DNA from: a virus
Strand: one strand, 5' to 3'
IMG/VR virus record: IMGVR_UViG_3300042914_002420
Location: 1-47,244 of that record
Length of the DNA: 47,244 nucleotides
A program made the position numbers and the translations under genes. Shown here one piece after another: positions 16,012-18,160 of this stretch (positions are counted from its first letter, which is position 1; each line of letters opens with the position of its first letter). Under the pieces are notes generated by a model. The model saw only the letters and a program-made list of their open reading frames with translations. It was not told where the DNA came from and did not search any database.

Positions 16012-16767
16012 TTATCCAATTACCCACGTAAGAGGTTGACTGCCATCGATATATCTCTTAAGGTCTTCAAGCAGGTCTTCCTGCATCTTGGTGCCCTCAC
16101 TCTTCATAGCACTACCATTCAAACTGGTTCCACCACCAGGACCAACAATTGATCCATATTTTTCACGAGCCTCACCCATGATAATTTTACATTGAGCAGT
16201 GACCCAACTGGTAATCCAGTTGCTACTTTGATAGTTTTGCAGCAGTGTAATTTCTGGTTTAAGATTATCGGTCCATAGCAATAGTTGCTCCCCACTGCCC
16301 TTGAAGTTTCTAACAAAGTGTATGACTTTAGTAACTGGGTTGAATGTGTAGATAACATATCCACCAAACATACGCGCTGCTAATTCAATGTATCCAGCAT
16401 AAAAGTCATAAGTGGCCAAACCACCAGCATAGTTGTAGTTCAACAAGTATGTGTTTAGTATAGCACTGCTAAAAGGATCAAAACTACTTGAACTTGGTCC
16501 AGTTTCAAGACCAACAGTTCTACGAAACACTTGACGCACATTGATAACTTCATGTGGTAGTGTATAGGTATCTTGATGCGCTTCTACTGTAAGAAGACTA
16601 TAACTTTCTTCATAGGCATTTTGCGCTCTTTGTCTGTAAGTGGCTATAGCATACTGATACGCAGCCTCATAATGTTCTGGGTCTAATTCCAGATCAATAA
16701 TGTTTTTTCCTAAACGATATCCAACATTGTCGAATATTTTTTGCTTCATTTCTGCTAAATCAGCCAT
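16012..16767 (-). CDS. 13: Neck / head-completion protein (T4 gp13-like)
   Basis: 251 residues. The N-terminus EMKQKIFDNVGYRLGKNIID-LELDPEHYEAAYQYAI corresponds to the T4 gp13 start ([20 protein letters not shown]). The C-terminus also follows gp13: IVGPGGGTSLNGSAMKSEG, a helix, and a final PLTWVIG comparable with GGVTIDGQ...PFGILVG. gp13 and gp14 form the neck that closes the portal after packaging and receives the tail; here gp14 and gp15 lie ~4 kb away on the other strand. A late box overlaps the upstream stop and a GAGGG site precedes ATG 16767. It is shorter than T4 gp13 (309). Confidence 0.85.
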   Translation of the reverse strand: MADLAEMKQKIFDNVGYRLGKNIIDLELDPEHYEAAYQYAIATYRQRAQNAYEESYSLLTVEAHQDTYTLPHEVINVRQVFRRTVGLETGPSSSSFDPFSSAILNTYLLNYNYAGGLATYDFYAGYIELAARMFGGYVIYTFNPVTKVIHFVRNFKGSGEQLLLWTDNLKPEITLLQNYQSSNWITSWVTAQCKIIMGEAREKYGSIVGPGGGTSLNGSAMKSEGTKMQEDLLEDLKRYIDGSQPLTWVIG

Positions 16768-16786: not shown

Positions 16787-16794
16787 TATTTATG
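16787..16794 (-). promoter_or_regulatory. Late promoter box CATAAATA for gp13
   Basis: CATAAATA on the minus strand overlaps the TAA stop of the upstream 161-aa gene. The leader of about 14 nt contains GAGGG before ATG 16767. Confidence 0.65.
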
Positions 16795-17275
16795 TTTTTG
16801 GCTCTATCGTAATAGAAACAGAAGAAGACTTGCCCGAGTAAATCTGTGGCTCTCCTACAATATATTTGTTTTCGTTACTCTGTATCAATCTTTTTATTAT
16901 TCTTTGATAGAGTGGCAACATACCACTCTTATCGGTAACAATCAATCTGATTTTTTCACCACTGTCTAACTTATTTTTATACAACTGAATAGCAGTAGTA
17001 AGATACTTGGTTGCTTTTGCAGTGTTTGGTTGTGAGCCGATATCTTTTACTCTTGAACCGCTATAGTGTTTTCCTTTAAATATAGTAGTGTGATGTATTT
17101 CCCAATACCCATCTGGTTGTTTTACTTCTACGAATACCTGAGATGAATCAGTTCTGCTTGCATAAACATGCAGTTCTTCATCTACATTTCTATCAGATAG
17201 CCATTTTTCTAATCTTCGTGTGTATTCATTAGATATCAGTTCGTGTTGAGTATCAAATATTTCCAATATACGCAT
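16790..17275 (-). CDS. Unknown protein, late, predicted leaderless
   Basis: 161 residues from ATG 17275 (MRILEIFDTQHELISNEY). An upstream in-frame start at 17290 is rejected because it overlaps the late box. The protein looks like a mixed alpha/beta domain: VFVEVKQPDGYWEIHH, a basic central loop, KIRLIVTDKSGMLPLYQRIIKRLIQ and a Ser-rich C-terminal strand. The DKSG-LPLYQRIIK stretch is loosely reminiscent of an acetyltransferase-like helix, but the motif is too weak for a call. It lies between gp13 and the structured-RNA interval, so it is expressed late with the neck genes. Confidence 0.7.
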   Translation of the reverse strand: MRILEIFDTQHELISNEYTRRLEKWLSDRNVDEELHVYASRTDSSQVFVEVKQPDGYWEIHHTTIFKGKHYSGSRVKDIGSQPNTAKATKYLTTAIQLYKNKLDSGEKIRLIVTDKSGMLPLYQRIIKRLIQSNENKYIVGEPQIYSGKSSSVSITIEPKT

Positions 17276-17280
17276 TTGTA

Positions 17281-17288
17281 TATTTATC
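17281..17288 (-). promoter_or_regulatory. Late promoter box GATAAATA (leaderless spacing)
   Basis: GATAAATA on the minus strand is followed by exactly five bases (TACAA) and then ATG 17275, placing the T4-rule +1 on the A of the start codon. Confidence 0.75.
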
Positions 17289-17289
17289 A

Positions 17290-17725
17290 ATAAGCAATAC
17301 TTGTTTTATTCATGCAGCAGAATATGCGAGTAGATATGAATCTACCGCAAAAAAACGATTATGCTCGTCACACGCGACGATGAATTATACAATTACGGTG
17401 GAGGATTGACTATGTCTCACCAATCTACATGAGTAGAAAGTATCTATATTCGCTGTTATCGCTGGAACATTATTCATCGAGTAGTTCCAACCAGCCCGCG
17501 CCCTCTATCGCTATTACCATGACGCGGCAGACTTTAAGGTGCATTGCTGCACTCACAACCATTACGACACAGAAAACGTTTCTGCCGTGGGCAGACGTTT
17601 GAGCATCCTACTCGGGTAGTTCTGTGAAGATGCGTGACCTCGCTTCTACCGTCCAAACCTAATTTGACGGATTATGTGGCATGATTCCGGGCCATGCTAA
17701 CCCATGTGGTCAGTGATGAGAAAAA
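17290..17725 (-). ncRNA. Candidate structured non-coding RNA in a gene-free 435-bp interval
   Basis: No convincing ORF on either strand; the longest minus-strand ATG frame is 30 codons. The interval looks less AT-rich than the flanking late genes and is packed with hairpins. On the minus strand: CCGTCAAA/TTT(G)GACGG (~17651-17672); GCATC/GATGC enclosing CTAC-CCGA-GTAG (~17605-17635); AACG-TCTGCC/GGCAGA-CGTT (~17576-17597); GTGCA-GCAA-TGCAC with a GNRA tetraloop (~17540-17553); GGAAC/GTTCC (~17464-17488); GATTG/CAATC (~17403-17426); TCGTC/GACGA (17365-17380); and GCG-GTAGAT/ATCTAC-CGC with one bulge (~17327-17348). The GNRA loop exists only on the minus strand, which favours that orientation. 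A U7 tract at 17349-17355 may mark a 3' end. It follows the terminator of the MazG gene, so a dedicated promoter or readthrough is needed; I see no good one. No tRNA, tmRNA, RNase P or group I intron core was found. Confidence 0.5.
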
Positions 17726-17744
17726 AATCGGTCAGTGACCGATT
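17721..17744 (-). terminator. Rho-independent terminator of the early methylase/MazG operon
   Basis: 8-bp perfect stem (AATCGGTC / GACCGATT, 17726-17733 with 17737-17744) and 3-nt loop. On the minus strand a run of seven T follows. It lies 5 bp after the stop at 17750. Confidence 0.85.
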
Positions 17745-17749
17745 CTGTA

Positions 17750-18160
17750 TTAGAGATCGCCTTCTTGGCGATTCTCGGAGTAAAAAGCATCAAAGCGTCC
17801 GCCTGGATATCTTGACTCCAACTTGCTTACATTTTCTAACAAAACGTCATTTGGATCATACCCGAGTGCCCTACAACTGTTGATCCAATACCAACCAATG
17901 TCGCCTAATTCGCGTTTCATATGGAATCGATTGTCTTCGTTGTAAGGTTTGCCCTGAAATAACATCTTCTTGACAATTTCGTTAAACTCACCACCTTCAC
18001 TTGCAAGGCCAATGCCACCTGTCATAAGCAGTGGAACATTGACACCAAGTTCATTCAGTTCACGCACTCGTGCAATAAACACTTCCATGTCGTTACTTGC
18101 ATCGCTGGTAACTGCTTGAACAAAGTTCTGATATTTGTTTAAATCAATTTTATTTGACAT
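17750..18160 (-). CDS. MazG-like all-alpha NTP pyrophosphohydrolase
   Basis: 136 residues with the all-alpha NTP-PPase acidic pattern: SEGGEFNEIVKKM (Glu55, Glu58) and KRELGDIGWYW (Glu84, Asp87), the E-x2-E ... E-x2-D Mg-binding set. The C-terminus VSKLESRYPGGRFDAF is like MazG-type proteins I recall from T4-like cyanophages. These enzymes hydrolyse NTPs or dNTPs to NMPs; in phage infection they may clean or rebalance nucleotide pools, or act on (p)ppGpp-type signals. It overlaps the methylase gene by 11 bp, has an AGAGGA site before ATG 18160, and ends at a strong terminator, so it is the last gene of the early operon. Confidence 0.85.
   Translation of the reverse strand: MSNKIDLNKYQNFVQAVTSDASNDMEVFIARVRELNELGVNVPLLMTGGIGLASEGGEFNEIVKKMLFQGKPYNEDNRFHMKRELGDIGWYWINSCRALGYDPNDVLLENVSKLESRYPGGRFDAFYSENRQEGDL

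Follow-up and report, generated by a model that had tools for sequence, protein, structure and literature searches.

The viral record IMGVR_UViG_3300042914_002420 of IMG/VR was analyzed over positions 1–47,244, and this stretch of 47,244 nucleotides (nt) is referred to as the window. It contains a gene-free interval, 17291–17749, which is flanked by a MazG-like gene and an open reading frame (ORF) of 166 amino acids (aa) and which almost certainly encodes a large conserved structured RNA, as judged by covariation among homologous sequences. The RNA has a length of approximately 405 nt and occupies positions 17309–17713 of the minus strand, with its 5′ end near 17713 and its 3′ end near 17309—both placed by conservation in a homologue set assembled by nhmmer and MAFFT. 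All features described below lie on the minus strand unless stated otherwise. The upstream neighbor is the MazG-like pyrophosphohydrolase gene (17750–18160; PF03819, 3.3e-06; phrog_229, 3e-46), after which an intrinsic terminator (17724–17746) adjoins the 5′ end of the RNA; this arrangement recurs in a number of relatives. Downstream of the RNA lies GATAAATA (17281–17288), a motif resembling a T4-type late promoter. The original prediction, which had proposed a candidate structured RNA between a MazG terminator and a late promoter, is thus borne out in its bounds, and also in its remark that the interval is less AT-rich than its flank: the GC content is 0.40–0.50 compared with 0.33–0.36 on the 16790–17290 side.

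The structure was first derived from compensatory changes among the aligned sequences, and its pairs were then scored on alignment A1 (49 sequences, MAFFT). Double compensatory changes occur in 55 of the 76 modeled pairs, pseudoknots included. Cells with double changes number 442, compared with approximately 120 in shuffles and 60–93 in slid controls, in which partners are shifted by 1 to 3 columns and relatedness is preserved; 92.2% of the cells are paired, compared with 37–45% with slid partners. None of 500 shuffles matches the real alignment on any measure—the shuffles being lenient because the structure was derived from the same sequences on which it was counted, and the statistics not being tree-aware. 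P5, P8, P9a, and P13a are paired in every A1 sequence, and P8 occurs as CCGCG, CCGGG, CCAAA, and CCCCG, each with a matching partner. P4, P6b, the outer pair of P9b, and P15 are weaker or misaligned in A1. The strand follows from the best helices: in P2, P3, P5, P8, and P13a, G·U occurs 77 times and A·C once, and since a G·U pair read from the opposite strand is an A·C mismatch, the RNA corresponds to the minus strand, the same sense as the MazG gene. Covariation among diverged homologues hence supports the structured RNA, whereas the at least eight hairpins on which it had been proposed prove nothing by themselves, because the single-sequence folding energy is not significant (z of −1.32 for the minus and −0.89 for the plus strand); the proof is comparative. 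The interval had also been described as devoid of ORFs. This holds in substance, as no small ORF is kept in frame across the homologues—frame and position vary, and the length of most gap runs is not divisible by three—but mechanical ORFs of 57 aa (17429–17602, plus strand) and of 40 aa on the minus strand are present.

The 5′ part of the RNA is built around two pseudoknots. The 5′ strand of P1, TGACC (17708–17712), pairs with GGTCA (17635–17639) in the loop of P4, and this loop pseudoknot (helix 1) features double changes in 4 of 4 pairs and is 96% paired. P2 (GGG/CCC) is interleaved with PK2 (GCAT, 17694–17697; ATGC, 17679–17682), forming an H-type pseudoknot at 17679–17703 with double changes in 7 of 8 pairs (helices 3 and 4). 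The P3 hairpin CCGTC/GACGG (17649–17670; helix 5) is 99% paired. The hairpin P4 (GCG..CGC, 17632–17643), whose loop holds the 3′ strand of P1, is read from the sequence; it is misaligned in A1 (60–66% paired) and statistically weak. The P5 domain (CACAGA/TCTGTG, 17568–17626; helices 8–10) closes ACTACC..GGATGC (17603–17620) and the P6 hairpin (17576–17598), with P5 itself showing double changes in 6 of 6 pairs and being 100% paired. Two hairpins drawn beforehand fall here: ACGTCTGCC-CAC-GGCAGAAACGT is conserved and is identical to P6; the nested GCATC[CTAC-CCGA-GTAG]GATGC is not supported in this form, since its outer GCATC arm runs into the conserved arm of P4 and has lost complementarity in relatives, although the ACTACC..GGATGC element within it is conserved. 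A third one, the GNRA hairpin GTGCA-GCAA-TGCAC (17539–17552), is real and optional: it is missing from many relatives in A1, and its loop is GTAA, GCAA, or GCGA in those that have one.

The 3′ part begins with P8 (CCGCGTC/GGCGCGG, 17496–17527; helix 11), which encloses the near-invariant loop GTAATAGCGATAGA (17504–17517), is 100% paired, and has double changes in 6 of 7 pairs. The P9 hairpin (17452–17495; helices 12 and 13) consists of GCTG/CAGC and GTTGGAAC/GTTCCAGC. Its loop carries CGATGAAT (17472–17479), the 5′ strand of PK9, which pairs with the 3′ strand ATTCATCG (17378–17385); this helix 14 is 97% paired, and the complements are clade-specific. P12 (TCT/AGA) and P13 (GGTGAG..CTCCACC) at 17397–17437 (helices 15 and 16) surround the conserved GAGACATAGNCAATCC (17403–17418). 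A further candidate helix, P10 (GCGA/TCGC), was dropped, being in competition with P9 and not upheld in L101 or L109. The 3′ domain features the direct repeat X (GACGAGCATAA, 17359–17369), the 3′ hairpin P15 (17326–17348; helix 17, 87% paired in A1, double changes in 1 of 6 pairs) with a near-invariant 3′ side ATCTACTCGC, and the second repeat copy X′ (TGCTGCATGAA, 17309–17319).

The queries used to find homologues in IMG/VR were the MazG protein, the 166-aa neighbor, and two DNA patterns from conserved loops. Approximately 100 homologous loci match by nhmmer over most of the RNA length, comprising more than 50 distinct sequences; the second pattern, taken from a different loop than the first, recovered additional members. 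Conservation is higher in the interval than around it: in L081 the RNA is 87% identical over 403 bases, whereas the aligned stretch as a whole reaches 78%. In Rfam, no family matches the window at the gathering threshold, and the matches in the interval at E ≤ 10 belong to scattered unrelated families. Among cultured phages, blastn with the RNAs of the window, L012, L101, and three RNAs of the Polynucleobacter-1 type (RF01718) gave no real match, nor did covariance model R2 match Atu_ph07, XaC1, PA5oct, or S-RIM14. The DNA pattern matched many bacterial contigs of GTDB, and in the fetched contigs nhmmer revealed no true homologue among the matches listed.

In the main clade, the RNA always follows MazG, which is accompanied by a small additional gene in some members, and precedes the gene of a neck or head–tail adaptor protein, all in the same orientation. 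This usual downstream neighbor of the family is found in the window at 16012–16767 (phrog_211, 5e-23), preceded there by the 166-aa ORF (16790–17290), which has no match in Pfam or PHROG and is confined to the clade of the window, with relatives only at the three viral-contig loci L081–L083. On its other side, MazG adjoins an N6/N4 DNA methyltransferase gene (PF01555, 18150–19034), in whose place relatives have other genes. The late-promoter-like motif occurs within 100 nt downstream of the RNA in 39 of 49 homologues and upstream of it in none of the 49. Close relatives (L006, L013, L021, L022, L025, L037, L047, L049, and L059) have empty sites, in which the MazG stop, GATAAATA, and the neck start are present with nothing in between. 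The members of a divergent clade (L101, L109, L166, L308, L313, L320, and L322) have other neighbors. No IscB, TnpB, or IS110 protein is among the identified neighbor clusters, which are only some of the clusters, many neighbors not having been searched.

The orphan motif Polynucleobacter-1, a little-studied bacterial RNA, was first described by Weinberg et al. in 2010 and rated probably cis-regulatory (PMC2864571). When eight loci of the window family were scanned with a permissive cmscan, the RF01718 model aligned over its full length, with the register kept and in the correct orientation, to the first 136 nt of L138. This match scores 21.5 bits (E of 0.016 in a search of 601 bases with all families) and falls short of the gathering threshold of 37 bits; L175 scores 9.3 bits, and the window itself is not matched by RF01718 at E ≤ 10. 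A pattern made from the RF01718 consensus yielded 75 viral contigs (L326–L400), and all six that were checked exceed the gathering score with 75–115 bits. In these phage copies the Rfam model spans the first 141 nt of approximately 430 nt, and the conserved part runs approximately 300 nt further. The pseudoknots are likewise present: the 5′ strand and the P4 loop pair as CTACTG/CAGTAG, CTACGG/CCGTAG, or CTACCG/CGGTAG, and the P9 loop and the 3′ segment as CAACTA/TAGTTG, CTCTAAT/ATTAGAG, ATTGGTTT/AAACCAAT, or TTAGCGT/ACGCTAA. Own partners form on average 6.9 Watson–Crick pairs, compared with 4.7 for swapped ones.

Both families hence feature the same helix order and topology, pseudoknots included, with the topology of RF01718 read per sequence since its alignment A4 is imperfect. 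Shared are the pairing of the 5′ strand with the P4 loop, the P2/PK2 pseudoknot, P3, P5 closing ACUAyCC..GGAyG and an inner hairpin, the P8 stem, the P9 hairpin loop paired with a 3′ segment, and the 3′ domain of X, hairpin, and X′. Both also reside in T4-like phage genomes and require no homologous adjoining gene. They differ in that sequence similarity is marginal (21.5 bits for the best member compared with 37), in that the conserved loops GTAATNGCGATAGA and GAGACATAGNCAATCC are missing from RF01718 phages, and in their sites: MazG/neck in the window family, SegE or PDDEXK/baseplate in RF01718 phages. In the latter, a SegE-type GIY-YIG or a PDDEXK gene lies upstream and a convergent baseplate gene downstream; SegE and PDDEXK genes flank RF01718 phage RNAs only. 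As a separate observation, L093 carries a 314-aa ORF on the minus strand, 1532 nt downstream of the RNA, whose N terminus resembles a GIY-YIG homing endonuclease by eye. When 22 large records were tested with both models, nine had one window-type copy, eight had one RF01718 copy above threshold, five had neither, and none had both, in records that may be incomplete. Judged by sequence and topology, the window RNA is a related variant of RF01718 without formal membership, and shared ancestry is likely. Of the original suggestion of a new class, the missing Rfam match at gathering stands; the topology, on the other hand, is common to the long form of RF01718. Conversely, the orphan motif itself is to be reinterpreted: its Rfam entry, corresponding to the first third of RNAs that are abundant in environmental T4-like phages, looks truncated, and its cis-regulatory rating is probably wrong for phages, as the next downstream gene is on the opposite strand in most loci. 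A search for RF01718 in 393 Burkholderiaceae genomes found no match, in a search that gave no signal anywhere and by which absence is not shown.

The repeats of the 3′ domain are short, near-identical, and clade-specific in both families. In the window family they occur as CAAGAAT/TAAGAAT, as AGGAATG twice (L096), AGTAATG twice (L126), AGAAGAT twice (L308), and GCATAC twice (L081); in RF01718 phages as GTGTCAAGT, AGGATAAT, GGATGAA, GGATGAT, AGATGAA, and AAGACAAG. X and X′ change together between clades: over 18 distinct pairs of the window family, 95 of 126 positions are identical, compared with 71.5 ± 3.9 when permuted (0 of 5000 permutations), in a statistic that ignores phylogeny. Among the large contigs tested, records that carry the RNA have one copy, except for one with two. 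This 277,516-base jumbo-phage record holds two paralogues, L407 and L408, with copies near 251.2 kb and 30.5 kb; they are approximately 71% alike over the 5′ part, and one of them, like the window RNA, is located upstream of the neck gene. The paralogues carry different X sequences, AAGAATR and TGCATGTG, which argues against a single common partner of X in that phage. Repeats that change together, and that differ between paralogues of one genome, make the partner of the RNA directly accessible to experiment. Anticodon loops of tRNAs were considered as targets of X by eye only and did not hold across clades.

Taken together, the element is probably a free-standing structured noncoding RNA of approximately 405 nt that acts in trans and may carry X/X′ as a duplicated recognition sequence. 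It would be transcribed in the direction of MazG and, in the simplest reading, cut from read-through transcripts of the upstream gene. The body would fold into a compact scaffold with multiple pseudoknots—the 5′ strand in a hairpin loop, the H-type pseudoknot, and the P9 loop with the 3′ segment—and the 3′ domain would display X and X′, one before and one after a hairpin. The RNA would work as one defined particle per phage genome, with X/X′ addressing a partner that varies between lineages. A shape held across dozens of phage lineages, in single copy in most tested records, would imply a costly and specific task in infection. Action in trans is itself rated as probable; the assignment of X/X′ as a recognition sequence is tentative. 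More speculative, and rather unlikely as a whole, is a new phage RNA superfamily in which a pseudoknotted scaffold presents two identical lineage-specific guide or recognition segments and paralogues address different nucleic-acid or protein partners. Several observations weigh against the main interpretation, that of a free-standing RNA acting in trans. The RNA is missing from many close relatives and is thus not essential in all of them; many members begin right after the terminator U-tract or a stop codon, without an upstream late-promoter motif; no significant complement of X was found within the RNA; and local gene conversion, acting between neighboring repeats, could have made X and X′ change together. 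The homology to RF01718 rests on topology and one in-register match of 21.5 bits, found in one of many sequences tried, and the reverse search with the window-family models R1 and R2 against RF01718 phage RNAs, filters off, gave chance-level matches off the RNA positions, which lowers the homology claim and does not remove it.

The comparison with GOLLD in the original prediction applies in kind only: the RNA is likewise large, pseudoknotted, and phage-borne, but has no match to the GOLLD covariance model, is half the size, and has no tRNA gene in the 47 kb window, whereas GOLLD often lies near tRNA genes. ROOL is likewise a phage RNA of large size with pseudoknots, and no protein gene is associated with it; it differs by the missing covariance-model match, its greater length, and its neighbors. 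GOLLD and ROOL assemble into nanocages through A-minor contacts and kissing loops, and among their covarying pairs there are some that form between molecules (PMC12286853). An ornate scaffold of this kind—an RNA-only homo-oligomer held by kissing loops and tetraloop contacts, with X/X′ merely on its surface—is the foremost alternative, unlikely rather than remote: no partner protein gene was found, the optional GNRA hairpin is present, and P1 or PK9 could just as well form between two copies of the RNA. Against it, the RNA has approximately half to two thirds of the GOLLD/ROOL length, no Rfam match to either, and no tRNA island in the window, and the joint change of X and X′ is left unexplained.

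A cis-acting element, either a neck-gene leader or a stability or termination element in the 3′ untranslated region (UTR) of MazG, would account for the constant position and orientation between these genes in the main clade and would agree with the 2010 rating of RF01718. It is improbable, given the late-promoter-like motif that separates the RNA from the following gene in most homologues, the two copies in different contexts of one genome, and the varied neighbors across clades and RF01718 phages, which argue against a cis role for one gene; downstream genes differ or converge between clades, unlike the 5′ UTR of one gene kind that marks a leader or riboswitch. The manA and wcaG motifs, also structured RNAs of T4-like phages, are such candidate 5′ UTR elements of metabolic genes, are far smaller, and have no match in the window. 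Inverted and direct repeats outside any gene, between early and late genes, could also suit a DNA-level element—a replication origin or a recombination or packaging site with hairpins in single-stranded DNA—and yet the excess of G·U over A·C in the best helices speaks for pairing in RNA, of which pseudoknots whose loops are sequence-specific are typical as well, making this reading very improbable. Least credible of all is a degenerate group I-like ribozyme or intron relative: Intron_gpI has no match even at E ≤ 10 and the element order differs from group I, on which grounds the similarity was rejected; the pairing of the elements differs as well, and the RNA lies between genes rather than within one. 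The idea had been raised by a short likeness of GAGATATAGTC, and of AGATATAGTC in L308, L313, L320, and L322, to the S element of group I introns, which was judged coincidental. The conserved loop in question reads GAGATATAGTC in L308 (6928–7364), L313 (9740–10164), and L322 (15–442), and GCGATATAGTC in L320 (2901–3348).
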